The notes beneath the pieces were generated by a model. The model was not told the DNA's origin and made no database searches. It was given only the letters and a program-made list of their open reading frames with translations. A program made the position numbers and the translations under genes. A DNA stretch of 64,000 bases from Halichondria panicea (Eukaryota; Porifera; Demospongiae; Suberitida; Halichondriidae), in assembly GCF_963675165.1 (NCBI RefSeq), contig NC_087377.1:1575501-1639500 (forward strand), read 5' to 3'. Every line of letters begins with the position of its first letter. Within the stretch, counting starts at the first letter, position 1. Positions 3,253 through 61,670 of this stretch are shown here, in pieces.

Positions 3253-3302
3253 TAGCCTCGAGACCAGCCGTTTGTTATAAGGAAAGGTTGGTCTCGAGGC
3301 TA
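3253..3302. mobile_element. TAGCCTC fold-back element, 50 bp
   Basis: TAGCCTCGAGACCAGCC at the left and GGTCTCGAGGCTA at the right form a hairpin. The flanks are a 9-bp target duplication with one mismatch (TTCGCGCTC / CTCGCGCTC). Copy B has it at the same place (43856-43905), so insertion predates the A/B duplication. Confidence 0.85.
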
Positions 3303-4216: not shown

Positions 4217-4762
4217 AGTACATTACATTATTTCAAATGACATGCAACGGCACGTAGTGGCAATACTCTGAAATGTACACCAAATACTTTATCACTGTCA
4301 CATGAGACCCCATACACAATACAACTGTCAAGGCTATAATTGAAGATTGCTTCAATTTAGATTGCTATACTTGTACAATAATGATGTCATGAATAATTAT
4401 AGTGATCACATTAATTCCCAAGTTGTTCCCTTAATTAGCTTATTACCAATGCATATGATTTAATTAGATCTCACTTTTCATTGGCTAACTAGAGCTATGT
4501 GTACAGAGGACTTCTGCCAACCAACCTGAAATCCTCTGTACATGTATATGTAGAGAAGTACATTTGTATCCTCAAGCAAACTATAGTTTGGGCAGAATAA
4601 TGGCAGTACATGGAATGCTGTGGTGAACCCATACAATGTTATTATTGCTTTCACTTCATTTGAAATGCAAACCTTAATTATTAAGTCACCACTAGCTATT
4701 TGCATTGTCCTAATACAAATCTATTTTGTAGCTCTTTATCAAAATATGTGTTTAAATTAGCG
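4217..4762. other. non-coding flank of array, conserved in three copies
   Basis: AT-rich sequence with no gene seen. It recurs nearly unchanged at about 11485-12025 and 44823-45387, differing by small indels (for example ATGCATATGA versus ATGAATTATGA). Confidence 0.7.
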
Positions 4763-13746: not shown

Positions 13747-15143
13747 CACTAGTCTACACACTGCATGTCGATTAGAGTAGCATTTCTGCAAACAAGGTGA
13801 AAATGGTTTTTAGTGGAACAGCTGTCTACCCCTGGGCCCATACACGCAGACATTCTACTTTCAAAGGACTATAGAATATTTGCATATACACTAAATTGGA
13901 ATTCCATGTAGTGGGACAAGACAACAGTCTGGCTAGGCTACCGATCAAAATTATCTCCGTAAAATACAATTATTGGGGTCACAGATGTCACAGCTGAGTG
14001 GAGAGTGGAGTGGGAGGGCTAGCTGGATGAATGTGAGGGATGATGGGATCATTGTGACAGGGCAATGGACCGCTATTAAACCCTAGTTATCAGTCAACAG
14101 CTGGAGCTTTATTTCCTACAATGCATAGCGGGAAATTTTTGCTGGTGCAATTTGGCTCCAGAGCCCTCAGCAGAAAGTTACGTGGGTTCTAATATTCGCG
14201 GTTCAATGCCAGGAAACCACACCCACCAATAGCATTGCATGTGAAATACCGGTGCATGGGAGTTTATCCCAGTTTTAAATGCTCTGCCCTCGAAAAACGA
14301 CGAAAATTTCCCGCTATACGGTACTTGTTATCAATACCCCATTTTTAATAATACATGTACAATGTATGCTAGCTGTGACAGGGCAATGGACCGCTACTAA
14401 ACCCCAGTGATCAGTCAACAGCTGGAGCTTAATTAATAATAATTATTATAATGAAGTTGATTGTTTCCCAGATGCTTGTTATCAATAATTATCCCGTCTT
14501 TGCTATATACAAAAGTACAGCTAGCATACATGTACATGTACATGTAGGTCCTAGGTGTGTTTTTTTACGTCAAAATCAGTACAGCTCAATTGCTTTTTTA
14601 GTATTTATTTGTATGCTAGCTGTACGTTTGGATCGACGTCAAATGATATTTCGGTCTCCCTTATTCCATTAAATAATGTGTGAAAAATTGATTAACTATT
14701 ATAGTGTGGGAAGTAGGGAGGAGGCACAGTGTACTATAATAATGCTTTTCTAACTCCCTAAAAATTCTATTCACAAATTTTGAGACAGTTTGCTCAATAT
14801 AATCTCAAAAGCCCAATGCTATGTCAACAGTTTATAACAAGAGAGCACAGTTAGCATACAAACAGCGTCAAATACAACAAATACAAGTTTTGCTGTTTTG
14901 GATGCTTCCATTAGAGGGAGTGTTAGCAAACGTACTGTACAAAGTTCATTCTAATCTTCACTGTCAGCTTTGAATCTGAGGCCTCAATTCACTTATTAGT
15001 TCTACTGCACGCTATAGCTGTACCTTAATTTGTAATTATTTCCCCCCACACACACACAGCACACCCACACACACACCCACACACACATACACACACCCCA
15101 CACACACACACCCCACACACCCCACACCCCACACAGCCTGTAC
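13747..15143. other. non-coding stretch with a CCGTATAG-type MITE and CA repeats
   Basis: No exon is supported; the expected last CFAP299 exon was looked for on the minus strand and not found. An approximately 200-bp element at about 14121-14324 has ends ATAGCGGGAAATTTT and AAAATTTCCCGCTATACGG. CA-rich microsatellite fills 15040-15135. Copy B carries the same at 46936-48332. Confidence 0.6.
14121..14324. mobile_element. CCGTATAGCGGG-type MITE
   Basis: Inverted ends ATAGCGGGAAATTTT / AAAATTTCCCGCTAT around about 170 bp. Same family as 16655-16815, 29866-30052, 34748-34849 and 35774-35875. The copy at 9905-10010 is truncated by the duplication breakpoint. Copy B has it at 47308-47510. Confidence 0.65.
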
Positions 15144-17063: not shown

Positions 17064-18319
17064 AGGTGTGTGTGTGTGTGAGGGGGGATTGCTTATCATG
17101 TATTAAGAAGACTTACTGAAATTTTCCCGTTTCTGTTAGTCTCTTCCCTCTGAGCCAGCCCCTCCAGGAACACTGATCCTTGCAGGTCCTTCCCAGCACT
17201 GCACAACACTCTGTACCATGGGGGACACACTAGGTCAGCACAACACTCTGTACCATGGGGGGACACTAGGTCAGCACAACACTCTGTACCATGGGGAGGA
17301 CACTAGGTCAGCACAACACTCTGTACCATGGGGGACACACTAAACACTCTGTACCATGGGGGGGACACTAGGTCAGCACAACACTCTGTACCATGGGGGG
17401 ACACTAGGTCAGCACAACACTCTGTACCATGGGGGGACACTAGGTCAGCACAACACTCTGTACCATGGGGGGGACACTAGGTCAGCACAACACTCTGTAC
17501 CATGGGGGGGACACTAGGTCAGCACAACACTCTGTACCATGGGGGGGACACTAGGTCAGCACAACACTCTGTACCATGGGGGGGACACTAGGTCAGCACA
17601 ACACTCTGTACCATGGGGGACACACTAGGTCAGCAGCGATAAATTAATCTGCTTGCAATCACATACTTACAATCAGTTCAGATTCTTTTGCAATCGCATA
17701 TACAAACAAGTCTTGTACAGTTTGTAGCTAAGAATCATTGCCAGTATACCTGAATTGTCCATAATAATTATTAGCAAAAGGGAGCGTTAATGTGACAAAT
17801 ACACACTCACCCCCCACACACACCACCCACACACCTCAGCTGGTCTCGACGTGCTAGCTTACTGGCTGCAGCCGCTTCTTTCCTGAGCTCAAAGTCTTCT
17901 CTCTTGAGCACTTCCCCTGATCCACGATATTCTAGCTCTACTAGCTGACGTGCTAGTTCCTCGTCCTGTGTGTGTGTGTGTGTGTGTGTGGAGTGTGGTG
18001 TGTGAGTGTGGGTGGGTGTGTGTGTGTGTGTGTGTGTGAGGAGTGGAATGCAAACCACCAACTACGTAATACCGTAAAAATTACAAGCCACTGCAGATGT
18101 GTTTCTACTCGATACTTCGTAATAAGTGTGTGGGGGTTGGAGAACCGTCGCCCCCCACAGTCAATCAACCCTACCCCCCACCTCGAGCTATAACCTCACC
18201 TCCAGGTAGAATAGATCAGTTGGTGTTATTTGAGAGTCCAGGTAATCCTCATACGTGGCATACTCGGTGACTATAGTGTCTGCAGCAGTGTTACTAGCTT
18301 CCTCACCAGTAGCCGCCAT
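15144..18319 (-). CDS. CFAP299: CFAP299 (C4orf22-like) ciliary protein, copy A
   Basis: Six exons splice in frame on the minus strand: 18319-18200 ([13 protein letters not shown]...[18 protein letters not shown]), 17965-17835 ([30 protein letters not shown]), 17198-17117 ([20 protein letters not shown]), 16968-16891 ([20 protein letters not shown]), 16640-16521 ([20 protein letters not shown]) and 15218-15144 ([20 protein letters not shown]). Sizes 120, 131, 82, 78, 120 and 75 bp give 202 codons. The motifs [30 protein letters not shown] and [11 protein letters not shown] are those I recall for CFAP299, a conserved cilia/flagella-associated protein of about 230 residues. The last exon (about 30 residues) was not found. 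A minisatellite fills intron 2 and TG repeats flank several exons. The start codon is 107 bp from that of the divergent signal-peptide gene, suggesting a shared promoter. Confidence 0.92.
15515..16319 (+). other. about 800-bp segment present in copy A only, with TATA box and basic repeats
   Basis: Relative to copy B (about 48712), copy A carries about 800 extra bases inside CFAP299 intron 5, bounded by ATCTAAG on both sides (B has ATATAAG once). It contains CCTATATAAACAG (about 15633) followed by a reading of 139 codons (15705-16124) with three imperfect repeats [18 protein letters not shown]. In another frame the same repeats read as lysine/arginine-rich, for example [15 protein letters not shown]. 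No terminal inverted repeats or A-tail were seen. It may be an insertion in A or a deletion in B; I do not recognise a product. Confidence 0.5.
16655..16815. mobile_element. CCGTATAGCGGG-type MITE in CFAP299 intron
   Basis: Right end GAAAATTACCCGCTATACGGCAG pairs with a decayed left end CTGCATAGCAAGTTTTCGTA. It is shared with copy B (about 49040-49193). Confidence 0.55.
16975..17082. repeat. TG / TGG microsatellite
   Basis: (TGG)n followed by (TG)n in CFAP299 intron 3. It is one of the two TG tracts at which the 2.1-kb tandem duplication joins (other tract at 19140-19202). Confidence 0.85.
17199..17634. repeat. 37-bp minisatellite in CFAP299 intron 2
   Basis: About 12 units of CACAACACTCTGTACCATG + G-run + GACACTAGGTCAG, 36-39 bp depending on the G-run. 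It abuts exon 3, so the exon's own acceptor (GTGTTGTGCAG on the minus strand) is the edge of the first unit. Each unit contains on the minus strand a CTGAC and CTAG/TACAG motifs, which resemble branch-point and acceptor signals. Confidence 0.9.
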
Positions 18320-18426
18320 CTTTATACAGTTCAGAAAGCTGGCGTTGTCATAGCTGGTAAGGTGTGTTTGTATCGGGTAAAGATCGGCAGATTAATAATT
18401 GCATTATTGACGTCCACTATAATTCA

Positions 18427-19130
18427 ATGGCCACCCAGACCCAGTACTGCTCCTGCTCTGTATCGTGGCTTCCCTGTTTAGCACAAGCACTGGTATATAA
18501 TAATAAAAAGTGTTGTGTCTGATATTATTCTGGAGCTGTAATGCATTCAATTTATATGCAATGTTACAATGTTCGATAACAAACGTGTTTCATACTTTAA
18601 TACGTGTTTTTTTGTACTGCAGGTAGCGATGACAACCATGTGTGGCTTCTCGGAGAGGACTCAGGTTACCATGACAACTACGATACTATCTACTCGTCAT
18701 GTGACACAACTAGCATCGTAGCACTGACAAAGGTACGTCAGCTTGACTATTATATATAAATCACCCAAACCCTAACTCATTACTAATAAATTATTTTAAA
18801 TATACTCTTTAATATTAAATTTTGATAGGCCTTTCAAAGAGCTACAAAACACATTCTTTAGATTTGTAATTGGGCAATCCTAACTCAAGTTATCGATCAT
18901 CAAAGATCAAAGAAAAATATTATGTCTAGAAAATAATTGAGTATGAAAGAAACCGTATGTATGACTAATTGTTCCCTTCATCTCAGGACAGGCTTGATGT
19001 TGACTACTACACTGCTGTGGAACAGCTGAGAATGATTAGATTCAATTTTCCTCTATAGCGGTTGATTTTGTGGTCACCCGAATGATTAACGAGGAACAAC
19101 AGGACGAAGTGTTTGTGGCCGTGCATGAAG
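18427..19130 (+). pseudogene. signal-peptide membrane protein gene, truncated copy A1
   Basis: Exon 1 (18427-18492) begins ATGGCCACCCAGACCC, but a 7-bp deletion relative to copy A2 throws the signal peptide out of frame. Exon 2 (18623-18732) encodes SDDNHVWLLGEDSGYHDNYD...SIVALTK. Exon 3 (18987-19130) encodes DRLDVDYYTAVEQLRMIRFN but contains an extra TA (CTCTATAGCGG) that creates a stop after FPL. Sequence then enters a TG tract and jumps back into CFAP299 intron 3, so exons 4 and 5 are missing. This is the left part of the 2.1-kb tandem duplication. Confidence 0.75.
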
Positions 19131-20462: not shown

Positions 20463-20504
20463 TAGCCTCCTTCACCGGCCTTGTGCGGCCTGGGATCGAG
20501 GCTA
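20463..20504. mobile_element. TAGCCTC fold-back element, 42 bp
   Basis: TAGCCTCCTTCACCGGCC ... GGCCTGGGATCGAGGCTA, flanked by a perfect 9-bp duplication GCGTTGTCA (20454-20462 and 20505-20513). The tandem sister copy at about 18341 and copy B at about 50840 have the empty site, so it inserted after the 2.1-kb duplication. It lies between the two divergent start codons. Confidence 0.92.
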
Positions 20505-20587: not shown

Positions 20588-22242
20588 ATGGCCACCCAGA
20601 CCCAACAACTAGTACTGCTCCTGCTCTGTATCGTGGCTTCCCTGTTTAGCACAAGCACTAATAATAAATTGAATGCATTACAGCTCCAGAATAATATCAG
20701 ACAAAACAATTATAATAATAAAAATTGTTGTGTCTGATATTATTCTGGAGCATTCAATTTATATGCAACGTTACAATGTTCGATAACAAACGTGTTTTAT
20801 ACTTTAATACGTGTTTTTTTGTACTGCAGGTAGCGATGACAACCATGTGTGGCTTCTCGGAGAGGACTCAGGTTACCATGACAACTACGATACTATCTAC
20901 TCGTCATGTGACACAACTAGCATCGTAGCACTGACAAAGGTACGTCAGCTTGACTATTATATATAAATCACCCAAACCCTAACTCATTACTAATAAATTA
21001 TTTTAAATATACTCTTTAATATTAAATTTTGATAGGCCTTTCAAAGAGCTACAAAACACATTCTTTAGATTTGTAATTGGGCAATCCTAACTCAAGTTAT
21101 CGATCATCAAAGATCAAAGAAAAATATTATGTCTAGAAAATAATTGAGTATGAAAGAAACCGTATGTATGACTAATTGTTCCCTTCATCTCAGGACAGGC
21201 TTGATGTTGACTACTACACTGCTGTGGAACAGCTGAGAATGATTAGATTCAATTTTCCTCTATAGCGGTTGATTTTGTGGTCACCCGAATGATTAACGAG
21301 GAACAACAGGACGAAGTGTTTGTGGCCGTGCATGAAGGTACGTGTGTGGGTGTGTGTGAGGTGTGGGTGTGTGAGGTGTGGAGTGTGGGTGTGTGAGGTG
21401 TGGAGTGTGAGTGTGTGTGTGGGTGGGTGTAAAAATAGACTAATGGCTGTTCAAGCTTTATTTAACACTGATGGGTCTCCTGTAATTTGAGAGTAGAGTT
21501 TTAATAATCAAAAGCCGTTCTCTAAATTTACTAACGGAACTGACGTTATTGCCGTTCAAAGATGCATGCCTCTATAGTACACTGTGATCTCCCACAAGTG
21601 GAGCTGTGTGTGTGTGTAGTACTGTCCCTACAATGCTCACACTAATTATTGTTGACCTCCCTAAACACACACTATTAATCCACCCACTCCACACTCCACA
21701 CCACCCACACACACACAGGTTATATGAGCGTCAACAGATTTGGCAACTTCACGATCTTCCCCATCTCCATGGGCAAATCCTCCAGCCTCATCATGATCTC
21801 CAACCTTGCTTGTACCACTCCCGTCCACACCGCCCACACCACACACATACTCTGTGTCAATATAATCAAAGGAACGCAAAAAATATGCAAGGACGATATT
21901 CCACCTGGTTCCCATGGTTACTCGGACGTCTGCCCACGTTTGCAACTTGTTTATATAGTGACATCGGATCAAAAGACGATTTTGAAATTCAACGTTAGCG
22001 ATGATTGTCTTGTATTGATATCTAAGAAGTCTGGAAATGACTACGGTAGTGCCATGTGGTTTTCTTATAATAATGGTTTGACATTATTTCTGAGTAATGG
22101 ACTGGCTTTGAATGTAGAGGCTGCTGGAACATTGGGTGGGGAAGACGTCGGCACTGTACACTATAGCTCTGTGTCACAACTATACAGTCAGGCAAGCCAG
22201 CTGGGAGGATCTAGCAAACTATACTTACATGGCCTATCATGA
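20588..22242 (+). pseudogene. signal-peptide membrane protein gene, copy A2
   Basis: Exon 1 encodes a good signal peptide (MATQTQQLVLLLLCIVASLF, then STST), but the splice donor seen in A1 and B (ACTG/GTATAT) is lost to a snap-back palindrome (20666-20763). Exon 2 is 20830-20939 and exon 3 is 21194-21337, the latter with the same extra TA and stop as A1. Exon 4 starts at 21719 and encodes GYMSVNRFGNFTIFPISMGK...DVCPRLQLVYIVTSDQKT...DDCLVLISKKSGNDYG...VGTVHYSSVSQLYSQ, then a frameshift gives KLYLHGLS and a stop at 22242, where copy B stays open for about 75 more codons. The transmembrane exon present in copy B is absent. No known domain recognised. Confidence 0.75.
20666..20763. repeat. snap-back palindrome at exon 1 donor
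   Basis: The left arm (20666-20710, AAATTGAATGCATTACAGCT...) is the inverted copy of the intron sequence that follows (20725-20763, ATTGTTGTGTCTGATATTAT...). Copies A1 and B have only the forward sequence. The left arm even retains TGCATTACAG, which the right arm of this copy has lost. It looks like a replication template switch rather than a transposon. Confidence 0.8.
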
Positions 22243-22681: not shown

Positions 22682-22897
22682 TAGCCTCGAGACCAGCCCT
22701 TCCTTATCTGAAAGAACGCCTGGTCAAGTTCCAATGTAGCACTCGTCCAGCTGAGTCAGCTTTTATAGCATCATAATGATATTCATGGGTAATACACCTT
22801 GGGCGGACCTTGTGCGGGCAATTACCGGTCCAACGAGTGCTACATTGGAAATTGACCAGGCGTTCTTTCAGATAACGAACGGCTGGTCTCGAGGCTA
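22682..22897. mobile_element. TAGCCTC fold-back element, 216 bp
   Basis: TAGCCTCGAGACCAGCC at the left and GGCTGGTCTCGAGGCTA at the right, with arms of about 70 bp (including GAACGCCTGGTC and AGCACTCGT) around a short centre. It is flanked by 9-bp ACTCTAGAA at 22673-22681 and 22898-22906. Absent from copy B. Confidence 0.92.
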
Positions 22898-22906
22898 ACT
22901 CTAGAA

Positions 22907-22947
22907 TAGCCTCGAGACCAGCCGTTCGTTATCTGGTCTCGAGGCTA
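22907..22947. mobile_element. TAGCCTC fold-back element, 41 bp, adjacent derivative
   Basis: TAGCCTCGAGACCAGCCGTT ... GGTCTCGAGGCTA. It consists of the outer ends of the 216-bp neighbour plus GTTCGTTATCT from the latter's right arm in inverted orientation. It is flanked by ACTCTAGAA on both sides (22898-22906, 22948-22956), so two elements share three copies of one target sequence. Confidence 0.92.
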
Positions 22948-23083: not shown

Positions 23084-23121
23084 ATAGATCTAACATATTC
23101 TGAAAGAAATACGTAAACAAG

Positions 23122-23409
23122 ATGCAGGCAAAGCTTTATGTTTTTGGTAAACAGTGCATTGAACCGACTTTTCGTGATAATCTGCATATTCCTCTAGCTG
23201 GCAGTATGCGGCCTGGAATCGAGGATATACTAGACAAGATTAATTTTAACGCGCATGTGCAGTATAATTGCGAGAGCACGTATAAAAGTAGTGAATGTAG
23301 CCTAGGATACTTTCATACTGAGTTGCAAGAAGCATTAGTCCATGATGAGTTGCTTACTGTGGAAATCAGTCACTGTCCTGAGCCTGGTTTGGGCTGTTGG
23401 AGGTGAGCT
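23122..23409 (+). CDS. small candidate ORF, unknown, intact only in copy A
   Basis: A 94-codon frame (MQAKLYVFGKQCIEPTF...VEISHCPEPGLGCWR) ends at GGAG/GTGAGC, a possible donor. In copy B the same sequence is split by a 709-bp fold-back element (54050-54758) and further indels, with no open frame left. No family recognised; could be non-coding. Confidence 0.25.
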
Positions 23410-24325: not shown

Positions 24326-27300
24326 GACAATTGAGTGGAGATGTGAGGCTGATAGATTCGTTTGGTTCAACAGATACCAGAATTGGCAGACTGGAGGTCT
24401 ATTACAATGGACAATGGGGGACAGTGTGTCAGGACAACTTCGGTATAAATGATGCAAGAGTGGCTTGTCGTCAACTAGGTTTCCTAGGTTACATAGGCTA
24501 TGGGGTCGTACGAAAGTAAGTATACCAATTATGGTTTGTGAATTTAGTTGATTTTAACTTGTATCACTCACCGATATTTTTACGATAGTGCCCTAACAGT
24601 GTCAGCATCCACACCGATATGGTTGGACGAGCTTGGTTGCTTTGGATCTGAAACTAGACTAGATGACTGCCCACACAATTCTATTGGAATTCATAATTGT
24701 GATCGTTCTGACGATGTGGGATTAGTGTGTGCAATAAGTGAGTGATGTTATACACTTTCAATATAATTATATATAATATATTACTTTAGATGAAGATTTG
24801 AGACTTGTGAATAGTTCTGGCACCACTGGGTTAGGTCCCGATGGTCGACTGGAGTTGTTTTATAACGGACAATGGGGGACAGTGTGTGACGATAGCTTCA
24901 GTCCAAACGATGCAAGGGTGGCTTGTCATCAGCTGGGGTACGATGACTATGCTAATTATGGACGAGTAGGAACATTAGGGTGAGTGCAGGGCCGTAGACA
25001 GTGGGGGGCAGCCTCCCTGTCATTCTAGATCTAGCTTTCAACAGAATTACTGATGTGCACATGCATAGTGCATATATTGAATGATGTAGTGGTGAAGCAC
25101 GGGTGCTGGAGTACCTTCTTAGCTCAAGCTGCCTTTCCTTAGTTGCTCCATGAATAGCTAAGTTGGTGCCAGAGCAAGTTACAAGTTGCCATGCATGAAC
25201 AGCTATATGCTCAGAAATAACGGCTGACATTTTTTTTAAGTAACCATTTTCAGCTGTTATTTTGCCATCCCTGCAAACCCAAATTATCTACGGGGAGTTG
25301 TCACTGCAATTAATTATAGATGTGATTTCTATAATAATAGTGCAATTGTGTTTTATTGCGATCATTTTTCCCTATAGTTTCTCCCAATCATCATCAACCA
25401 CTCGGACATGGCTAGACGAGCTTCGTTGCTTAGGAAACGAGACCAAACTCATTAATTGTCCTGCTAACACTATCGGAGTTGAAGATTGCACCCACACACA
25501 AGATGTGGCCTTATTCTGTATTTCGGGTAAGTTAAATAGATGAGTACGAATATGGTGCCACACTGCTGCAGTTCAATTTGCAAGTATAATGCGTAGCCAG
25601 AATTGTATTCTTTTAATGTACATATAATTATACACATCATGGTACAAGTATACCTAGAATAATGCGAGTAACTAACATAAATTATGTGAATTTTGTGAGG
25701 GTTGATAAATTCGCAACAATAAAATCGCAAAACCTAAATTATTACTAGTAAATGCAAACGATCCTTGCCAAATCACAGATCGCAAAGAGTCAAATTTTCT
25801 GCTGATTTAGCTCATTCGCAAAGGTTTTTCATCCGCAAAATATTCTAGTAATACGGTACATGCATCATAATTATACAGCCATGCACAATAATTCAGTAGC
25901 CACCTTGACATGTATTCATTGTCAGAGGGAGACCTGAGGCTGGTAGACAATTCAGGCCGAACAGGAGGCTCCTCTGGCACTCTGGAGGTCTATAACAGTG
26001 GACAATGGGGGACAGTGTGTGATGATAGCTTCAGTCCAAATGATGCAAAAGTGGCTTGTCGTCAGCTGGGGTACGATGACTATACTCAGTATGGACGAGT
26101 AGGAACATTAGGGTGAGTGTCACTGTATTTAAAGTGATTTCAGCTATAATTATTGCAATTGTGTTTTATTGTGATCATTTCCCCCTATAGTTTCTCCCAA
26201 TCATCATCAACCACTCGGACATGGCTGGACGAGCTTCGTTGCTTAGGAACTGAGAGCAGACTCATCGATTGTCCTGCTAACACTATCGGAGTGGAAGATT
26301 GCACCCACTCACAAGATGTGGCCCTGTTCTGTATTTTGGGTAAGTTAAATAGATGAGTACGAATTAATAGTGCCACATTGCTGCAGTTCAATTTTCTTTT
26401 TTTAAGTAATGCATGACAGACAGCGTAGCTAGAATCGTATTCTTTTAATGTATACATATTATACACATCATCATTATAAGTAAATGTATAATTTATAACA
26501 AGTTAATAGCCTGACATGTTAAATTCGCTGTATTCATTGTATCAGATGGAGACCTGAGGCTGATAGACAACTCAGGCCGAACAGGAGGCTCCTCTGGCAG
26601 ACTGGAGGTCTATTACAGTGGACATTAATTAAGCTATCATCACACACTGTCCCCCATTGCGCAATGGGGGACAGTGTGTGATGATAGCTTCAGTCCAAAC
26701 GATGCAAGAGTGGCTTGTCGTCAACTAGGATTCTCAACCTAAACTCGATACGGACCAGTTGGAACGCTAGGGTGAGTCAGTGTGTAAACTCATCATTGAG
26801 TTAACTATAATTATCTTACTATATAACTTGCCATTTGGTTCATCCATGCATGACGTATTATATACTTTATTGTGTACACTTCAATTAAAGTTTAAGCTTG
26901 TACAATATTTGTGGATAATTATTTCCCCCTGTCTATAGTTTCTCCCAACCTTCATCAACCACTCGGATATGGTTGGACCAACTTTGTTGCTCAGGAACTG
27001 AGAGCAGACTCATTAATTGTCCTGCTAACACTATCGGAGTGGAAGATTGCACTCATTCAGAAGATGTAGCCCTGGTGTGTGGTGCAGGTATATAAGAGTC
27101 AATGAGACCTGCTATATATAATTATAGCTCTGAATATTCTTGCAGCTTATAAATTACTATTACTATTCCATTACTTTGCAGCTACTTCCCCTTCTTCCCC
27201 TTCTTCCCCGTCCTCAACTCCAACTACATCCTCCAACATAACATCGATCAGCACAGGAGTGACTATTCCTATTATCATTGTTGTTGTGATCCTTTTTATT

Positions 27301-29110: not shown

Positions 29111-30287
29111 TTACTTTTAGTTGGACATCTATAGAAACTATGTGTATATTGCCAGCTCATGCAAATGACTATGGGAAAACAAGTATAATATAGCTGTTAT
29201 ACCTAAAGCAATTAATCTGGACCCTTCCCGGCCCTTTTTTTATTGTTGTGAAGTCCTATAATTATTGCTAGAATGGTCTAACTAGGTAGATGGTTCAAAT
29301 ATTGTTAAGGAAGTGCAAGCTACTAGCAGCAGCATTCTTACACTGACAGTAAGACTTAAGGTTTGTCTTTCTGGTGATTTTTTTGAAAGTTAAAATAGGC
29401 GACTGTAACTAGACATGCAAAGCTAGCTATGCATGGCAGACTAGATGCAAGCAAAGTCAGCAGCCCTTCCCTCAAATGTGTTTGTTTGGTAAAGATCTCA
29501 CACAGATGAATAATAATTATGATAAGCAACAAAGAAAGAGTCAATGACTTTTATGAGCAAAATGTATAATTATGGATTCGCTAGTAAAGGTGAATTAGGT
29601 GCATTAGTCATTGTGAGGGGGTGTTATCCCAACTCGTACTTCTTGTCCGGCGCGGCGTAAGCCTACCGAGTATTGTGGAGCAGCTGGTCATAATATCTCA
29701 GATCCTTCACAGAGGGAGGGAGTTTGGGAATGGTGGCCAACTTTGATAAATGTTCTGAGTGTGCAGCTTAGCTCTTGGTGAAACCCCCTCCTCATCTGTT
29801 AGCTGATATCTGTACAATAATTATGAACAGTGATACGATCTTGGTAAAGTACCGTATATAGTGGGTTATTTTCGTATGGTGGGAATTTTCGGATATTTCG
29901 TATTGAAGAGCATTATACGAAAATTGAAATTGCAATAGATTCAACGTCACTATCTTGAGCTGTACGAATATTTAAAATACGAATGGGTATAATTATAGTC
30001 TGTACGAAAATTTGCACCAACAAAAATTACCTGCTATACGGCGGTATGCATGAAAATGACAAATTATGGCCCCGACTAAATTTTGGATTAAAACACATCA
30101 ATTAAAAGCTGAAAATCATAAAAAATGTTGATACTGATACTCAAGTTACGGCTATTTAGATATTATAATAATGTTCAACTACTAAAATAGTCTATAATAT
30201 ACTATTCAACCATAATTTTAACTCAAGTTATCGACCATCACAATAATTAAGGTATAGCTACTAAAGCACTCCCTCCACACACACAAT
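29111..30287. other. end of copy A homology, MITE, non-coding
   Basis: Homology with copy B runs to about 29850 (GATACGATCTTG). Here copy A meets a CCGTATAG-type MITE (29866-30052: CCGTATATAGTGGGTTATTT ... CCTGCTATACGG) and then unique sequence. No gene is seen. Confidence 0.6.
29866..30052. mobile_element. CCGTATAGCGGG-type MITE at end of copy A
   Basis: Ends TACCGTATATAGTGGGTTAT and ACCTGCTATACGG, with internal inverted pieces TTTCGTAT / ATACGAAAA. It starts within about 15 bp of the point where A and B lose similarity. Confidence 0.65.
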
Positions 30288-31024: not shown

Positions 31025-31083
31025 TAGACTCGCCAGCCACCCCTTCCTCGGGGTAAGGAAGGGCTGGCTAGCTGGCGAGTCTA
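31025..31083. mobile_element. TAGACTC fold-back element, 59 bp
   Basis: TAGACTCGCCAGCCACCCCT ... GGCTGGCTAGCTGGCGAGTCTA, flanked by perfect 9-bp GCAGCGCCG (31016-31024 and 31084-31092). Same architecture as the TAGCCTC family with a different terminal sequence. Confidence 0.9.
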
Positions 31084-31132: not shown

Positions 31133-31183
31133 TAGCCTCGAGACCAGGCCGTGTATATTTTAATCGGCCTGGATTCGAGGCTT
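31133..31183. mobile_element. TAGCCTC fold-back element, decayed
   Basis: TAGCCTCGAGACCAGGCCG ... CGGCCTGGATTCGAGGCTT, about 51 bp. The terminal A is changed to T and no target duplication is recognisable, so this is an old copy. Confidence 0.75.
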
Positions 31184-43136: not shown

Positions 43137-43427
43137 CTGTATAGGTAAAGTTGACATGCAGTTAGCAATTGCAATAAGTATATACCCAAGTGGACTAAGT
43201 GGTGGTTTTAGAGGGCAGTACCTTGACCTTGTATAAGCCCTTATACCTGCACATACTCTTTCCTCAGATCAGGACATGAATTCTTGTGTACCATTGGGTA
43301 CATTGCTAAACCTCACATGAACAATCTCCTACAACTGAGATAAGCTAATTGCAAACCACATTAGTTATTATACACGTACTTGTATTATAGCCGACAATAA
43401 CACACATAATTATACGTATCTTCACAG

Positions 43428-43607
43428 CCCAACACTGCGTATACACTCTACGTATATGGAACAGATAACGAACATGCAAGCCTCTTATCAAACTTTATAT
43501 TTCTCACAAGTTATGATGCAGGATGATGCTGCCCACCCGGGGTACCTGTGTAGGGCTGAGGAATTGATGGACACAATAAAGACAATAGACTACCATCATG
43601 CACGCAG
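43428..43607 (+). CDS. candidate internal exon, unknown product, copy B
   Basis: No difference from 2825-3004 that I can see, including both splice signals. Product unknown. Confidence 0.3.
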
Positions 43608-43855
43608 GTACACTACCACCCACTCCACTCATCACACACCACCCACTACATTAGTAATGTATGAGTACGCAATGGGGGACCATACATTACAACAAAGGGA
43701 GCTAGAGAGCTAGTCCATAGATAAAGTATCTGGGTCCACTCAATAAGACCTGACACTACTCACCCTAGCATTGTCCAGCTCCCTCTGCAGACTAGCCACC
43801 ATATCCACCAACATTTATCAGGACTGCAATGCATGATCCTCCATCGTTCGCGCTC

Positions 43856-43905
43856 TAGCCTCGAGACCAGCCGTTTGTTATAAGGAAAGGTTGATCTCGA
43901 GGCTA
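43856..43905. mobile_element. TAGCCTC fold-back element, 50 bp, copy B
   Basis: Orthologue of 3253-3302, one base different (GGTTGATCTCGAGGCTA). Confidence 0.85.
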
Positions 43906-44198
43906 CTCGCGCTCATGCCTGCCTTCTCTGATCAAGGCTATGTGGTTAACAAGAAGCTGCAACTGAAGTGATCCCGTACCCAACAACAATGGTAAAGGGT
44001 CACTAAACTAGAAAGCTGAAATGAAATTTTGCCAAAAAAGTATAAAAATAGAAGGTGATGGTATATATACATGTATACACACACACACAGGACACAGAGC
44101 ATTATAATAGTCAGTACTTATAGTCAACACAGAGTCAGTTCTTTACTTGACATTCTTGCATGCTTCTTCACTTGACATCAGTTCTTTATTCGTCCCTT

Positions 44199-44809
44199 TC
44201 AAGTAGCTCCAGTATCTGTATGAAAGCATGAGCACAGCACAATAAACTAGAGCCTTATAAGCAAAACATTGCAATAAAACACTGTGTGCAATGAAAATAG
44301 GGATCAGATTTATGAATATTCCAGTAATAATCTGTTTAAAAACATGAGTGCATGATTTAGGATCCCTCAGGGCTAGTAGAACCATCAAGTACTTAGAATG
44401 CTGTATACTATTATTGCATGGCACAACTGCATGACGAGCAAGCTCACAAAGTTAATAAGGTAACTCACGTGTATCCTTGACACAGGCCTTGTGAATGCTG
44501 CGAACTGCCTCTCCGTCCTCAATCTTTGTAGCAATTTCCACTAATCGACCGTAAGTAGCTGTTGAATTCAATGGATTGAATTGGAGAATATTTTTACTCT
44601 TCCACTTCTTTAGAGCAGCGAGGAATTTCCCTGGAATACCAACAAATGTGTGATCGATAGCACCAATCTCAGCATCACTGAGGCCCAGCCTGTGCTTGTA
44701 TCTGTCATATAGCCAGCAATCTCGGTAGACAACTGGAGAAGAGCATCATCCCAGCACTCACTACTCAACCGAGGGGCAGTCGCTGTCACTATCGTCTTAT
44801 GTGGTTGAA
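44199..44809 (-). pseudogene. death-fold domain protein, copy B (frameshifted)
   Basis: Exon 44809-44469 is 341 bp instead of 339 because CATAGCC has become CATATAGCC, an extra TA. The reading changes after TEIAGY to MTDTSTGWASV and ends early. The last exon (44215) is unchanged. The same type of TA gain also breaks the signal-peptide gene in copy A. Confidence 0.7.
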
Positions 44810-44822
44810 CTGTACAGATCAA

Positions 44823-45387
44823 AATACATTACATTATTTCCAATGACATGCAACGGCACGTAGTGGCAATACTCTGAAATGTACACCAAATACTTTATCA
44901 CTGTCACATGAGACCCCATACACAATACAACTGTCAAGGCTATAATTGAAGATTGCTTCAATTTAGATTGCTATACTTGTACAATAATGATGTCGTGAAT
45001 AATTATAGTGATCACATTAATTCCCAAGTTGTTCCCTTAATTAGCTTATTACCAAATGCATATGATTTAATTAAATCTCACTTTTCATTGGCTAACTAGA
45101 GCTATGTGTACAGAGGACTTCTGCCAACCAACCTGAAATCCTCTGTACATGTATATGTAGAGAAGTACATTTGTATCCTCAAGCAAACTATAGTTTGGGC
45201 AGAATATTGGCAGTACATGGAATGCTGTGGTGAACCCATACAAATGTTATTATTGCTTTCACTTCATTTGAAATGCAAACCTTAATTATTAAAGTCACCA
45301 CTAGCTATTTGCATTGTCCTAATACAAATCTATTTTGTAGCTCTTTATCAAAATAATTATGTGTTTAAATTAGCGATAAGTCAACCA
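44823..45387. other. non-coding flank of array B
   Basis: Third copy of the 4217-4762 sequence; no gene seen. Confidence 0.6.
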
Positions 45388-46935
45388 CTAGCTACAGTGC
45401 ACACAGTGGGACCACACTATAGGCTCTGTACACTAGCTACAGTGCACACAGTGGGACCACACTATAGGCTCTGTACACTATAGCTACAGTGTACACAGTG
45501 GGACCACACTATAGGCTCTGTACACTAGCTACAGTGCACACAGTGAGACCACACTATAGGCTCTGTACACTAGTCTACAGTGCACACAGTGGGACGACAC
45601 TATAGGCTCTGTACACCAGCTACAGTGCACACAGTGGGACCACACTATAGGCTCTGTACACTAGCTACAGTGCACACAGTGGGATCACACTATAGGCTCT
45701 GTACACTAGCTACAGTGCACACAGTGGGACCACACTATAGGCTCTGTACACTAGCTACAGTGCACACAGTGGGACCACACTATAGGCTCTGCACACTAGC
45801 TACAGTGCACACAGTGGGACCACACTATAGGCTCTGTACACTAGCTACAGTGCACACAGTGGGACCACACTATATAGGCTCTGTACACTAGCTACAGTGC
45901 ACACAGTGGGACCACACTATAGGCTCTGTATGTACTAGCTACAGTGTACACAGTGGGACCACACTATAGGCTCTATACACCAGCTACAGTGCACACAGTG
46001 GGACCATACTATAGGCTCCGTACACCAGCTACAGTGCACACAGTGGGACCACACTATAGGCTCCGTACACTAGCTACAGTGCACACAGTGGGACCACACT
46101 ATAGGCTCTGTACACTAGCTACAGTACACACAGTGGGACCACACTATAAGCTCTGTACACCAGCTACAGTGTACACAGTGGGACCACACTACTATAGGCT
46201 CTGTACACTAGCTACAGTGCACACAGTGGGACCACACTATAAGCTCTGTACACTAGCTACAGGGTACACAGTGGGACCACACTATAGGCTCTGTACACTA
46301 GCTACAGTGCACACAGTGGGACCACACTATAAGCTCTGTACACTAGCTACAGGGTACACAGTGGGACCACACTATAGGCTCTGTACACTAGCTACAGTGC
46401 ACACAGTGGGACCACACTACTATGGGCTCTGTACACTAGCTACAGTGCACACAGTGGGACCACACTATAGGCTCTGTACACTAGCTACAGTGCACACAGT
46501 GGGACCACACTATAGGCTCTGTATGTACTAGCTACAGTGTACACAGTGGGACCACACTATAGGCTCTATACACCAGCTACAGTGCACACAGTGGGACCAC
46601 ACTATAGGCTCTGTACACTAGCTACAGTGCACACAGTGGGACCACACTATAGGCTCTGTACACTAGCTACAGTGCACACAGTGGGACCACACTATAGGCT
46701 CTGTACACTAGCTACAGTGCACACAGTGGGACCACACTATAGGCTCTATACACCAGCTACAGTGCACACAGTGGGACCACACTATAGGCTCTGTACACTA
46801 GCTACAGTGCACACAGTGGGACCACACTATAGGCTCTGTACACTAGCTACAGTGCACACAGTGGGACTACACTATAGGCTCTATACACTAGCTACAGTGC
46901 ACACAGTGGGACCACACTATAGGCTCTGTACACTA
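45388..46935. repeat. 45-bp minisatellite array B, about 34 units
   Basis: Same unit and same flanks as arrays A1 and A2, one third the size of A1. Contains units with ACTACTATAGG (48 bp) and the AGGGTACACAG variant also found in A1. Confidence 0.95.
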
Positions 46936-48332
46936 GTCTACACACTGCATGTCAATTAGAGTAGCATTTCTGCAAACAAGGTGAAAATGGTTTTTAGTGG
47001 AACAGCTGTCTACCCCTGGGCCCATACACGCAGACATTCTACTTTCAAAGGACTATAGAATATTTGCATATACACTAAATTGGAATTCCATGTAGTGGGA
47101 CAAGACAACAGTCTGGCTAGGCTACCGATCAAAATTATCTCCGTAAAAATACAATTATTGGGGTCACAGATGTCACAGCTGAGTGGAGAGTGGAGTGGGA
47201 GGGCTAGCTGAATGAATGTGAGGGGTGATGGGATCATTGTGACAGGGCAATGGACCGCTACTAAACCCTAGTTATCAGTCAACAGCTGGAGCTTTATTTC
47301 CTACAATGCATAGCGGGAAATTTTTGCGGGTGCAATTTGGCTCCAGAACCCTCAGTAGAATTTTCGTGGGTTCTAATATTCGCGGGGTTCAATGCCAGGA
47401 AACCACACCCACCAATAGCTTTGCATGTGAAATACCGGTGCATGGGAGTTTATCCCAGTTTTAAATGCTCTGCCCTCGAAAAACGACGAAAATTTCCCGC
47501 TATACGGTACTTGTTATCAATACCCCATTTTTAATAATACATGTGCAATGTATGCTAGCTGTGACAGGGCAATGGACCGCTACTAAACCCCAGTGATCAG
47601 TCAACAGCTGGAGCTTTATTAATAATTATTATTATAATGAAGTTGATTGTTTCCCAGATGCTTGTTATCAATAATTATCCCGTCTTTGCTATATACAAAA
47701 GTACAGCTAGCATACATGTACATGTACATGTAGGTCCTAGGTGTGTTTTTTTACGTCAAAATCAGTACAGCTTAATTGCTTTTTTAGTATTTATTTGTAT
47801 GCTAGCTGTACGTTTGGATCGACGTCAAATGATATTTCGGTCTCCCTTATTCCATTAAATAATGTGTGAAAAATTGATTAACTATTATAGTGTGGGAAGT
47901 AGGGAGGAGGCACAGTGTACTATAATAATGCTTTTCTAACTCCCTAAAAATTCTATTCACAAATTTTGAGACAGTTTGCTCAATATAATCTCAAAAGCCC
48001 AATGCTATGTCAACAGTTTATAACAAGAGAGCACAGTTAGCATACAAACAGCGTCAAATACAACAAATACAAGTTTTGCTGTTTTGGATGCTTCCATTAG
48101 AGGGAGTGTTAGCAAACGTGCTGTACAAAGTTCATTCTAATCTTCACTGTCAGCTTTGAATCTGAGGCCTCAATTCACTTATTAGTTCTACTGCACGCTA
48201 TAGCTGTACCTTAATTTGTAATTATTTCCCCCCACACACACACAGCACACCCACACACACACAGCACACCCACACACACACCCACACACACATACACACA
48301 CCCCACACACACACACCCCACACAGCCTGTAC
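46936..48332. other. non-coding stretch, copy B equivalent of 13747-15143
   Basis: Contains the CCGTATAG-type MITE (47308-47510) and a CA repeat (48235-48320). No exon supported. Confidence 0.6.
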
Positions 48333-50865: not shown

Positions 50866-50999
50866 TAGCCTCAACCCCAGGCCGATCCGTCTCCAATTGA
50901 AAGGTTAGCCTCTATCCCAGGCCGATCCGTCTCCAATTGAACGCGTATTTTTCACCTTTGTTCTATTAAAAAAAAATCGGCCTGGGACCGAGGCTGCTA
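50866..50999. mobile_element. TAGCCTC fold-back element, 134 bp
   Basis: TAGCCTCAACCCCAGGCCG ... CGGCCTGGGACCGAGGCTGCTA, flanked by TGGTAAGGT / CGGTAAGGT (9 bp, one mismatch). The left 40 bp are duplicated in tandem (a second TAGCCTCTATCCCAGGCCG begins at about 50906). It lies between the CFAP299 and signal-peptide gene starts. Absent from copy A. Confidence 0.85.
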
Positions 51000-51061: not shown

Positions 51062-53645
51062 CCACTAACAACTAGTACTGCAGTGCTCCTGCTCTGTATC
51101 GTGGCTTCCCTGTTTAGCACAAGCACTGGTATATAATAATAAAAAGTGTTGTGTCTGATATTATTCTGGAGCTGTAATGCATTCAATTTATATGCAACGT
51201 TACAATGTTCGATAACAAACGTGTTTTTTTTGTACTGCAGGTAGCGATGACAACTATGTGTGGCTTCTCGGAGAGGACTCAGGTTACCATGACAACTACG
51301 ATACTATCTACTCGTCATGTGACACAACTAGCATCGTAGCACTGACAAAGGTACGTCAGCTTGACTATTATTATTATAATTTATATAAATCACCCAAACC
51401 CTAACTCATTACTAATATTTTAAATATACTCTTTAATATTAAATTTTGATAGGCCTTTCAAAGAGCTAAAAAATGCATTCTTTAGAATTGTAATTAGACA
51501 ATTCTAACTCAAGTTATCGACCATTAAAGACCAAAGAAAAATATTATGTCTAGAAAATAATTGGAAACCGTATGTATGACTAATTATTGTTCCCTTCATC
51601 TCAGGACAGACTACATGTTGACTACTACACTGCTGTGGAACAGCTGAGAATGATTAGATTCAACTTCCCTCTAGCGGTTGATTTTGTGGTCACTCGAATG
51701 ATTAACGAAGAACAACAGGACGAAGTGTTTGTGGCCGTGCATGAAGGTACGTGTGTGGGTGTGTGTGAGGTGTAGAGTGTGAGTGTGTGTGTGTGGGTGG
51801 GTGGGTGTAAATAGACTAAAGTCATGGCTGTTCAAGCTTTATTTAACACTGATAGGTCCCCTGTAATTTGATAGTAGAGTTTAGATTTTGTAAAAGCCAT
51901 TCTCTAAATTTACTAACGGAACTGAAGTTATGACCGTTCAAAGATGCATGCCTATATAATAATTTATTATAGTACGCTGTGATCTCCCACAAGTGGAGCA
52001 TGTGTGTGTAGTACTGTCCCTACAATGCTCACACTAATTATTGTTGACCTCCCTAAATACACACTATCAATCCACCCACTCCACACTCCCCACCACCCAC
52101 ACACACACAGGTTATATGAGCATCAACAGATTTGGCAACTCACGATCTTCCCCATCTCCATGGGCAAATCCTCCAGCCTCATCATGATCTCCAACCTTGC
52201 TTGTACCACTCCCGCCCACACCACACACATACTCTGTGTTAGCCTCGACCCCAGGCCGATCTGTCTCCAATTGAACGCTAGGTCGCCTACTATTTTTCAA
52301 CTTCGTTCTATTAAAAAAAAATCGGCCTGGGACCGAGGCTAACTCTGTGTCAATGTAATCAAAGGAACGCAAAAAATATGCAAGGACGATATTCCACCTG
52401 GTTCCCATGGTTACTCGGACGTCTGCCCACGTTTGCAACTTGTTTATATAGTGACATCGGATCAAAAGACGATTTTTAAATTCAACGTTAGCGATGATTG
52501 TCTTGTATTGATATCTAAGAAGTCTGGAAATGACTACGGTAGTGTCATGTGGTTTTCTTATAATAATGGTTCGACATTATTTCTGAGTAATGGACTGGCT
52601 TTGAATGCTGTTGAACTAGAGGCTGCTGGAACATTGGGTGGGGAAGATGTCGGCACTGTACACTATAGCTCTTTGTCACAACTATACAGTCAGACAAGCC
52701 AGCTGGGAGGATCTCGCAAACTACTGACATGGCCTATCATGACCATACAAAATGATGTCATGAATAGAGTATTCTATTTCAAGTGGTCGGATTTATCTAG
52801 TAATGGTACAGAGACTATTCCAAGCCCGAATGGCTACAGTATCGTCCGTCCAATCAGCTTGCAGTATTGTCAGATGGACTTTGCATATGCTTTAGTTACA
52901 TACAAGAGGGAAAAGGACAATTCCCTTAGAACAGGTGTCGCTTATATTAAGTCTTATTTTTGAATTTTGCTATTAATTTTAATGTTGCTATAATTATGTA
53001 CGTATGATTATAATAAATAATTATTAGTTATTGCCCAGCCAGAGTGCAACATGCCATATTATGTTGCCGAGGGCATTATGTCATCCAGTGCAATATATGG
53101 CATGTTGCACGAGGGCGCCTGCAATAACCCCAATGACGTTAAACTCGTTTGACTATAATTATAAGTCGTAATAAAAGACATGTGTTTTGAAGGAATTTAG
53201 TGTATTCATTAGTTTGTGAATACCATGACCAGATGTACGTGCCTTAATCTGTACTGGAAGTGAGCGTCATTAATAGTATCACTATAATTATTGTGCATTA
53301 CTGAGATCTATTAGTTCGGAATTAAGTTGCAAATATCTCAATGACTCGTGTGTATATACCTGAAATACATACTGGTTACACCATAATAAATTATTTTATG
53401 CAGCATTTACTTCCTCTTCATCATCTGACGTCTCGATCGGTCTTGGAGTGGCCTTTCCTTTCATCATTATCTTTGTAGTTGTGACTGTCATCTCGTTTAT
53501 CTTTGGTTTAATAAGGAAAGGGATTTGCCTGGTTGGCCTTGCAGCACGCTTCACATGCAGGACTCCCGTAACCGTAGTCACTAACACTGCTGCGGTGACA
53601 GATGTAACCGTTGCAAATAAACAAGATGCCTGCCCACCAACTTAG
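51062..53645 (+). CDS. signal-peptide, single-pass membrane protein gene, copy B (disrupted)
   Basis: Exon 1 (to 51128) keeps the hydrophobic VLLLCIVASLFSTSTG but the start codon and about 15 bp are missing and 5 bp are added. Exons 51241-51350 and 51605-51746 are intact (IRFNFPLAVDFVVTRMINEE). Exon 4 (from 52111) has lost one T (GGCAACTCACG) and carries a 102-bp fold-back element with a stop; beyond it the frame is open (VYIVTSDQKTIFKFNVSDDC...RPISLQYCQMDFAYALVTYK). A donor at 52934 (ACAG/GTGTCG) would join in phase to exon 53404-53645: TSSSSSDVSIGLGVAFPF, membrane segment IIIFVVVTVISFIFGL, then RKGICLVGLAARFTCRTPVT and a short tail ending QDACPPT. The extracellular part is not recognised; it looks lineage-specific. 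The last exon resembles the SRCR gene's transmembrane exon. Confidence 0.65.
52240..52341. mobile_element. TAGCCTC fold-back element, 102 bp, inside a coding exon
   Basis: TAGCCTCGACCCCAGGCCGA ... TCGGCCTGGGACCGAGGCTA with an A-run near the right arm, flanked by perfect 9-bp ACTCTGTGT (52231-52239, 52342-52350). Copy A has the uninterrupted exon. Element plus duplication is 111 bp, a multiple of three, but its last codon in frame is TAA. Confidence 0.95.
52964..53403. other. intron/flank of signal-peptide gene, copy B
   Basis: Contains the fold-back repeat at 53027-53128; from about 53147 the sequence has no copy-A counterpart. No gene seen. Confidence 0.5.
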
Positions 53646-54049
53646 AAGTGATTGTTAACTAAAACTTTAGACGGAGTACCTGAAAGAATATTGAACACTT
53701 GACAATTGTATAGTGATAGCAAATTAGTATCATGTATAATATCTAGATCTAGTTGATGTTTCATGCATAATTACAGCTTAATTTTCTCGCTATTTTCGGT
53801 GTTCTGATTTTGATATACACATGGTATATCTGGTATATCTGGTAGAAATGTCGACTGTAGAATGCCAATAGTTACATTAATTGATACAAAACTGCTAAGC
53901 ATGTACATGTTATCTGCATGGATGCCGGTAATTTTTAACACGTATATGCAGCCTCGATTTCAGGCTGATTAAGTTGGCATATTCTGAAAGAAATACGCAA
54001 ACAAGATGGAGGCAAAGCTTTATGTTTTTGGTAAACAGTGCATTGAGAC
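53646..54049. other. copy-B-specific non-coding stretch
   Basis: No gene seen. Homology with copy A resumes at about 53976 (CATATTCTGAAAGAAATACG). Confidence 0.5.
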
Positions 54050-54758
54050 TAGCCTCCTTTGCAGCCTCTCCTTTTTCTGTTCTTTGTCACAGAAGAGAAA
54101 TATTGGAGGAACAAAGAAAGAAAGAAGGAAGCAACTAAGAAAAAGGAGAGCCTGCCTTGCTAAGTCGCGTGATCCCCTACTGACATAGACAAATTTTAAC
54201 GAGCGTGGGCGAGAGAAAACCTCAATAACTGTCCTCCCACACAGTACTTGGAGCGCATTTACCAGGAACATAATCTGTTATGAACAGTACAGTACAGTGC
54301 AGTAGAGTCAGCCTTCGTGAGACCTTTAGTCAGTAGAGGAAGTATGAAAGACTAGAGTAGAGTAGACTATACTGCTGTAATAATTATATCTACTAATCAA
54401 GTGGGTCTGTTCTGAACTCAGGAAAAAAAACTGAGCTAAATTTAGATATTAACAGTCTCTTTAGTCTTTACTAGGTAAGCCCTTGTCTACGATGTTGATT
54501 CTGGCTTACTATCTACGATGCTAACAGCTTTTATTTAGAGTTTGTAATGCGTAGGCATGCTGTAGCTTTTGCTCTGTCAGGCTCCCGTTCATTTTCACTC
54601 GTCTACCACTTGTCTACCGTCACGCGACTTAGCAAGGCAGGCTCTCCTTTTTCTTAGTCTCTTCCTTCTTTCTTTCTTTGTTCCTCCAATTAGTCCCGTA
54701 TTTTATCTTATTGAACTATGACAAAGAACAGAAAAAGGAGAGGCTGCGGAGGAGGCTA
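54050..54758. mobile_element. TAGCCTC family long element, 709 bp
   Basis: Ends TAGCCTCCTTTGCAGCCTC and GAGGCTGCGGAGGAGGCTA, with inverted arms of about 130 bp (AAAAAGGAGAG, GCCTGCCTTGCTAAGTCGCG) and a unique AT-rich centre. It is flanked by perfect 9-bp CATTGAGAC (54041-54049, 54759-54767). No long ORF, so non-autonomous. It splits the small frame that is intact in copy A (23122-23409). Confidence 0.95.
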
Positions 54759-56071
54759 CATTGAGACCGACTTTTCGTGATAATTTGCATATTCCTCTAT
54801 AGCTAGCTGGCAGTATGCGGCCTGGAATCGAGGATATAATTATAATTTTAACGCGCATGTGCAGTAATTGCATGTGACTAGGTCTGCATGTATAAAAGTA
54901 GTGAATGTAGCCTAGAGACTTTCATACAGAATTGCAAGAAGCATTAGTCCATGATGAATTGCTTACTGTAGAAATCAGTCACTGTCCTGAGCCTGGTTTG
55001 GGCTGTTGGAGGTGAGCTGGCTATGCCTCTGGCATTACATATGTATCATAATTATAATGAAAGTAAAATATAATTATTTCCCTTCTAATAATAATAATTA
55101 TACTTCTATACTATACTCTGTTATTAAATGTTTCTACTCTGTATGATCGATGATTGTTTCTGCATAGAGTTGGTTAGACATGTAGGTAGGAATTCGGTGA
55201 GCGAGAATCAACGTTTTCTGTTAATAATTATTCTACTGCATGGTATTGTTGCTGTCCTGTTATGTTTGTGTCATTGCTATAATTATGTATCGCGAGTAAT
55301 TTTCGTATAGACTTCGTATTCTAAATATTCGTACAGCTCAAGATAGTGACGTAGAACTGAGAATAATTTTCCATTTTAAATTTCGTATGACACTTTACAA
55401 TACAAAAATACGAAAATTTACACCATGCAAAAGTAACTCGCTTAGCTAAAATAAATCAAAAGTGTTGTGTAGCAGTTAGTAATGTCAATGAAGCTACTTA
55501 TATTTATTTCAGCGGTTAAAACTTGAAAGACTTCTGATGTACTAAAATATTTATCAATATACATGCAGGAACGTACACATTCCATTAGTTTCCTATATTA
55601 ATAAAGGTATTGATTCCATATGCTTTTCCTCTGAGTAATTGGAAGCTACCACAGTTATGTAGTTATCATGTTTTTCAGTAATGGTGTGAGGGGGGAATAA
55701 CTGACTGGCCTACTCATAATTAACTCACACCTTTCGTCATATTAATAAAGCTATTGATTCCATGCTTTTCCTCTGAGTAATTGGAAGCTACCACAGTTAT
55801 GTAGTTATCATGTTTTTCAGTAATGGTGTGAGGGGGGAATAACTGACTGGCCTACTCATAATTAACTCACACCTTTTGTCCCTAATTGTTAGTTACCACA
55901 GTTATGTGGGGAATACTGACTGGCCACTATTATGAGCCAATATCAGCTGCACACTGACTAATAAGACATAATTATAACAAGCCAGCTGTGAGCTAGAGAA
56001 TCAGAGACATCAATTAATATGTTATGGATTCTAGCCGTGAGTGGCAATAATTCTTCATTTTGTGCCCTCAG
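54759..56071. other. upstream region of SRCR gene, copy B
   Basis: Counterpart of 23150-24325. An approximately 137-bp tandem duplication (55598-55737 and 55738-55874, with ATTGATTCCAT...ACTCACACCTTT) is present only in B. A 60-codon hydrophobic frame occurs at 55128-55310. No gene supported. Confidence 0.5.
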
Positions 56072-61642: not shown

Positions 61643-61670
61643 TAGCCTCGAGGGGCTGGAGTCGAGGCTA
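61643..61670. mobile_element. minimal TAGCCTC element, 28 bp
   Basis: TAGCCTCGAGGGGCTGGAGT + CGAGGCTA, i.e. the two ends with almost nothing between, flanked by 8-bp CCTGCCCT (61635-61642, 61671-61678). Copy A at about 29460 (CAGCCCTTCCCTCAAATG) has no insert. Confidence 0.88.

Follow-up and report, generated by a model that had tools for sequence, protein, structure and literature searches.

MITEs such as Tourist and Stowaway are short, non-coding DNA elements of high copy number, which carry terminal inverted repeats (TIRs) and target-site duplications (TSDs) and are cross-mobilised. Terminal inverted repeats together with 9-bp duplications are also usual in Mutator-like elements (MULEs), where the TSD measures about 8–11 bp, while the Foldback (FB) elements possess long TIRs composed of internal tandem subrepeats and Kolobok duplicates TTAA. 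The IESs of Paramecium are transposon remnants of down to less than 30 bp that are thought to have shrunk in place and are excised by a domesticated transposase. The AcademH DNA transposons are reportedly the subject of a paper by Kojima in 2020 in Mob DNA 11:15. AcademH makes duplications of 9 or 10 bp and AcademX of 3 or 4 bp, with a relation to helicase and nuclease (PMC10045372). Other papers mention a RecQ helicase in Academ (PMC3627910), give a mean length of 5,565 bp for the bivalve Academ elements (PMC10294476) and ascribe a RecQ helicase plus a transposase to KolobokH (PMC9587614).

The insertions considered here were recognised in a 64-kb stretch of sponge DNA (the window), part of an assembly of 131.5 Mb in 39 contigs. 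They are proposed, with a probability of roughly three in four, to be non-autonomous derivatives (MITEs) of a DNA transposon that encodes a RecQ helicase and a DUF6589 protein and fits the AcademH lineage. All the traits of MITEs are present, being short length, absence of coding capacity, TIRs, TSDs and high copy number, but many copies measure only about 40–58 bp and amount to little more than two ends. The putative source may be filed as AcademH-like: it resembles AcademH, as described in print, in its encoded helicase, 9-bp TSD, TIRs and length of about 5.6 kb, whereas the descriptions of AcademH consulted mention neither subterminal hairpins nor large numbers of very short derivatives. 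KolobokH likewise combines a RecQ helicase with a transposase, but the TSDs here are 9 bp long and varied rather than TTAA. Foldback and Mutator-like elements such as Tm1 share a fold-back structure and a 9-bp TSD; unlike them, the present family was found with no MULE transposase between its ends at the 30 of 31 PF10551 loci read, and its terminal repeats do not consist of extended subrepeat arrays. By eye, tandem subrepeats were not evident in the TIRs (~123–140 bp) of the 709-type copies described below, and the tiny copies are too short to hold them. The short IESs of Paramecium are comparable as remnants of similar size; in contrast, the sponge elements lie in genomic DNA between 9-bp TSDs. 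Among the papers listed by literature searches on sponge foldback MITEs, RecQ transposons, Academ, short palindromic MITEs and Amphimedon MITEs, none describes such tiny Academ derivatives in its title or the start of its abstract.

Insertions within the window

The window contains 21 occurrences of the heptamer TAGCCTC where 6.2 would be expected, and none of 100 shuffles attains 21. Beside the 709-bp element, the window holds eight further end pairs (one of them TAGACTC) and one degenerate pair. The coordinates are collected in Table 1.

Table 1. Elements with TAGCCTC/GAGGCTA or related ends in the window, with their target-site duplications
Feature	Position	Strand	Remarks
50-bp element	3253..3302	.	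9-bp TSD, 1 mismatch
42-bp element	20463..20504	.	two differing end types; perfect 9-bp TSD GCGTTGTCA
216-bp element	22682..22897	.	member of ~216-245 bp family; perfect 9-bp TSD ACTCTAGAA
41-bp element	22907..22947	.	perfect 9-bp TSD ACTCTAGAA on both sides; tandem with 216-bp element, TSD common to both
59-bp relative	31025..31083	.	TAGACTC/GAGTCTA ends; perfect 9-bp TSD GCAGCGCCG
51-bp relative	31133..31183	.	right end damaged (GAGGCTT); without TSD
50-bp element	43856..43905	.	flanks identical to 3253 element; TSD 1 mismatch
Degenerate relative of 102-bp/786-bp family	50866..50999	.	left end repeated; TSD TGGTAAGGT/CGGTAAGGT, 1 mismatch
102-bp element	52240..52341	.	perfect 9-bp TSD ACTCTGTGT
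Left 9-bp TSD of 709-bp element	54041..54049	.	CATTGAGAC
709-bp element, non-coding	54050..54758	.	TAGCCTC/GAGGCTA ends; TIRs ~123-140 bp; TSD CATTGAGAC
Right 9-bp TSD of 709-bp element	54759..54767	.	CATTGAGAC
28-bp element	61643..61670	.	8-bp TSD

An earlier note on this DNA had regarded these elements as true insertions with one kind of ends, 9-bp duplications and very mixed lengths, a description borne out by the TSDs and empty sites in the window. All six perfect TSDs that it had named (at 20463, 22682, 22907, 31025, 52240 and 54050) were found again, as were the less perfect ones at 3253, 50866 and 61643, and the right end of the element at 50866 is degenerate, reading GAGGCTGCTA. Its appeal to empty sites as proof of insertion holds for four elements: exact empty sites exist for 20463 (at 18218-18475) and for 52240 (at 21718-21987 and in loci L002/L003), that of the 709-bp element (23094-23271 and L002/L003) has one base missing, and that of 61643 (29325-29582) has one substitution in the TSD. 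No empty site turned up in this test for 31025, 31133 and 43856, and for 3253, 22682 and 22907 it returned nothing beyond occupied copies or incomplete matches. The near-total self-complementarity attributed to the family is a property of the short copies only, the 709-bp copy being self-complementary in its TIRs.

The element at 43856 is the 3253 insertion itself, carried in a segmental duplication, and the block containing it lies at 2535-6337 and again at 43138-46942. Because all six listed copies of the 28-bp element, that of the window included, have the same flanks except for one base in one copy, this element is a single insertion copied with a larger repeat. The concern that the ends might be part of a larger repeat thus applies to the 28-bp element, and probably to many 50-bp copies, but not to the family as a whole, for which such an artefact is ruled out by differing flanks and TSDs and by the empty sites.

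Between 22673 and 22956 (the same insertion is present in L002 at 1492-1796), the window displays the order TSD-element-TSD-element-TSD, with elements of 216 and 41 bp and one shared duplication. An independent tandem of the same order, of 57 and 36 bp, lies at L030 222-341.

The 5.6-kb element and the longer families

A 786-bp element found adjoining a 709-type copy provides a link to a coding element. It carries a disrupted segment similar to the beginning of a RecQ helicase (DEAD E 1.4e-4, under the Pfam cut-off; joined fragments against RecQ, E 3.6e-10) and matches the 5,643-bp element described next by tblastx with E 1e-41. RecQ_Zn_bind has 11 matches in the genome. Of the three that were read, two belong to copies of the same element, in which the homology begins exactly at TAGCCTC. 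The complete copy (C14:5650576-5656218; 5,643 bp) has the ends TAGCCTCGATTCAAGG.../...GAGGCTA, a 58-bp TIR of 93% identity and the perfect 9-bp TSD GGTAAACAC; its reading frames are split, and it carries DEAD and oppositely directed DUF6589 segments (E 1.9e-15 and 2.7e-31) as well as a RecQ_Zn_bind match. The copy on C1 (C1:9261800), on which Helicase_C and RecQ_Zn_bind segments were scored, starts at the same TAGCCTC, with no right end within the stretch read. The third match belongs to a diverged relative of 5,561 bp (C1:11438718-11444278), which shares these ends and the gene order, possesses perfect 56-bp TIRs and is 57% identical in the aligned part of DUF6589, and which shows no TSD.

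Set beside the AcademH traits, TSDs of 9 or 10 bp are seen in the 5,643-bp element and in 18 of 20 709-type copies and are absent from the 5,561-bp relative, the helicase gene is represented by DEAD, Helicase_C and RecQ_Zn_bind, and both full-length elements combine TIRs with a length of 5–6 kb. Across the genome DUF6589 was matched 92 times, and a comparison by eye places 5 of the 11 RecQ_Zn_bind matches no more than 5 kb from such a match. The DUF6589 protein gave no match in the PDB up to E 10, and no relatives were confirmed in IMG/VR and GTDB genomes. It is probably the transposase. The 709-bp copy, which the earlier note had considered perhaps closest to the source, belongs to a non-coding family with 40 scored places and is not the source; the 5.6-kb helicase and DUF6589 element is the better candidate.

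With the 709-bp element as the query, 40 of 690 candidates were scored and all 40 matched, 35 of them near full length (the window copy included), the sizes being mostly 709-744 bp (~735). Among 20 copies read, 18 have a perfect 9-bp TSD, two of the 18 sharing flanks, while L015 and L021 fail. The 216-bp query gave 40 scored places, of which 38 are whole-length (again with the window copy) at 216-245 bp (~220), and several of those on C1 fall within a repeated region. The 786-bp element has 40 scored places including itself, the others at 95-97% identity (family ~795 bp). Exact duplications also flank elements of 135, 516, 607 (with TAGTCTC ends), 765 and 1209 bp. The last two are versions of the same insertion, with TSD CCTTATACC, in paralogous copies (1209 bp at C1:262000-263400, L064; 765 bp at C1:689080-690000, L066), the 1209-bp version holding an extra inverted-repeat insertion relative to the other.

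Past the heptamer, which is common to families with otherwise dissimilar ends, most ends examined can fold into a hairpin, the stem sequence of which differs among families. In comparison with 200 shuffles each, five of seven ends of the large families fold better (0, 0, 0, 2 and 3 of 200 as good); the two that do not (38 and 46 of 200) are the right ends of the 5,643-bp and 786-bp elements. Heptamer, TSD length and this hairpin anatomy are the sole links of the 709-bp and 216-bp families to the helicase element.

The 102-bp element at 52240 consists of 53 bp and 49 bp of opposite ends of the 786-bp family (identity 52/53 and 48/49), joined at a 2-bp microhomology (TA); in it, an end-to-end deletion product of this helicase-remnant family is directly seen. 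By its sequence, the 41-bp element at 22907 is consistent with joined ends of the 216-bp family.

These observations may be accommodated in a single scheme. The transposase, probably the DUF6589 protein, would recognise the TAGCCTC(GA) end and probably the adjacent hairpin arm, and insertion leaves a 9-bp duplication, as observed. Internal deletion would then give rise to the MITEs of about 220, 735 and 795 bp, as the helicase remnant demonstrates for the 786-bp family and as is supposed for the other two. In a more extreme deletion, the two ends would be joined in or next to their hairpins to yield an arrangement of heptamer-arm-arm-heptamer of a few tens of bp; such a joint is seen in the 102-bp copy and would be expected in the other tiny elements. 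The tiny elements read have kept the heptamer and the outer hairpin arm from each end, and they are near-complete palindromes because the outer arms of both ends pair with each other. Some two thousand fold-back insertions would thereby be linked to a named kind of source, DUF6589, an uncharacterised domain, is suggested as a transposase, and the minimal transposable end could be read from a graded set of natural elements that begins at 5.6 kb and reaches a few tens of bp.

Tiny elements across the genome

Exact TAGCCTC...GAGGCTA heptamers 10-30 bp apart occur at 521 places (reversed-pattern control 0) and those 31-61 bp apart at 1,601 (control 2), giving 2,122 places of 24-75 bp, a total that takes in copies carried inside larger repeats. 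A chance origin of the end pairs is ruled out by these controls together with the shuffles. Among the first 50 listed places of the search with 31-61 bp spacing, 18 are 50-bp copies on contig C1 between 1.28 and 2.38 Mb, which are probably one insertion multiplied by local duplications like that of the window. The same 50 places include lengths of 47 bp (8/50), 55 bp (5/50) and 58 bp (5/50), and three evenly spaced 55-bp places are perhaps one duplicated insertion; some recurring tiny sizes are indeed copies from segmental duplication.

Flanks were compared for the 42 C1 places listed on both strands, 14 one-strand places and C1:4774450 (a repeat of C1:4734508) being omitted. Distinct flanks were present at 36 of the 42, among which three pairs (the 28-bp element, C1:2001544/2149445 and C1:8037770/8049719) appear each to represent a single insertion whose flank has diverged. 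A perfect 9-bp TSD was found in 14 of the 36, all 40-49 bp long, and one with at most two mismatches in 19, whereas mispaired flanks were perfect in 0.08% of cases. A further four have a duplication of 7-8 bp shifted by 2-3 bases, the 28-bp element has an 8-bp duplication in both versions of its flanks (one with a mismatch), and 11 of the 36, those of 24 and 27 bp included, have no TSD by eye even with shifts allowed. The smallest element seen with a perfect 9-bp duplication measures 36 bp. In a single case, that of C1:2001544 and C1:2149445, seemingly the same 44-bp insertion differs by two complementary changes at positions 18 and 27, which mirror each other, a pattern suggestive of one arm having served as template for the other.

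Distinct 47-bp elements with a similar core have TSDs within one mismatch in five of seven, and their duplications differ. One 30-bp end was matched 293 times on one strand of the genome and 287 times on the other. Its roughly 100 listed places, judged by eye from their positions alone, contain convergent pairs in three size classes: 11 span exactly 58 bp (two of these within one repeated segment), six about 355-600 bp and three 1.7-3.5 kb. Recurring sizes together with differing duplications suggest, short of proof, that units of about 40-58 bp moved in their own right, and the commonest tiny classes, above all those of 47 and 58 bp, would most likely have been mobilised in trans as such. DNA of this length is far below that which bends easily to bring its own ends together. 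Actual movement of the 47- and 58-bp classes would make them remarkably short mobile units and pose the question of how ends so close to each other enter one complex.

Alternative origins and neighbouring repeats

A rival possibility is that the tiny elements never moved as such: a longer element would have inserted with a 9-bp TSD and later collapsed at its site, its two hairpin-bearing ends having recombined or slipped against each other, and left a scar like a solo LTR. Such a collapse would be favoured by the subterminal palindromes in the inverted ends, which are also mutual direct repeats, and the 765-bp and 1209-bp versions of one insertion indicate that insides do change in situ; the lower frequency of perfect TSDs in tiny elements than in the 709-bp family is in keeping with it as well, and would fit greater age equally. 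It is nonetheless judged unlikely, given that the sizes of 47 and 58 bp recur, that the 58-bp pairs of the 30-bp end outnumber the nine longer ones among the listed places, and that many uncollapsed copies persist in the longer MITE families. Conversely, the elements of 40–58 bp may be conceived as the true mobile units, the transposon's own RecQ-like helicase opening the ends, the palindromes folding and the ends of tiny elements annealing into one hairpin, with the fold-back form as the working substrate and the copying of arm from arm keeping the palindromes perfect; this elaboration is considered distinctly improbable.

With regard to the source itself, the derivation from a RecQ helicase and DUF6589 transposon of AcademH type has to be set against two other assignments. 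Movement by a MULE transposase, the Mutator-like origin proposed in the earlier note, would draw on the 31 PF10551 matches in the genome and on the agreement of the 9-bp TSDs with the range of MULEs, which is not specific. For 30 of these matches the surrounding sequence was read to about 1.5 kb either way, and for nine of them again to about 3.5 kb (ends lying farther away would escape); no PF10551 locus examined lies between these ends with a duplication. Heptamers on both sides were met only at L060, where the ends are unlike beyond the heptamer, with 7 and 5 mismatches over the 9 flanking positions, and every pair with a matching duplication at these loci adjoins the gene instead of surrounding it. 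The helicase-DUF6589 element, by contrast, does have these ends and a TSD, and a MULE origin was rejected as scarcely credible. Alternatively, the helicase and DUF6589 element might represent a separate, undescribed superfamily with a RecQ-like helicase and a 9-bp stagger, rather than AcademH. Pfam gives the partner protein of the helicase as a family of unknown function and the term DUF6589 was found in none of the papers searched, which would suit such a status; the match of helicase, 9-bp TSD, TIR and length to what is published on AcademH/Academ makes it quite unlikely.

Several other repeats lie near MULE genes or in the window. MULE transposase loci (L047 1-1030, L058 5397-6494 and L059 973-2057) adjoin degenerate repeats of about 1 kb rich in GAGTCTA/TAGACTC, which might be extended ends of foldback type belonging to another MULE family. 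A palindrome with 50-bp arms at 2426-2527 of the window, within longer TACACTGTAAA/TTTACAGTGTA ends, could be a mariner-type MITE. A perfect 60-bp palindrome of a different kind (AAGCTATCATCACACACTGTCCCCCATTGC and its complement) occupies 26631-26690, with a related arm at 25996. Lastly, arrays of a 45-bp tandem repeat are located at 4773-9548, 12027-13758 and 45386-46942, within large duplicated blocks.
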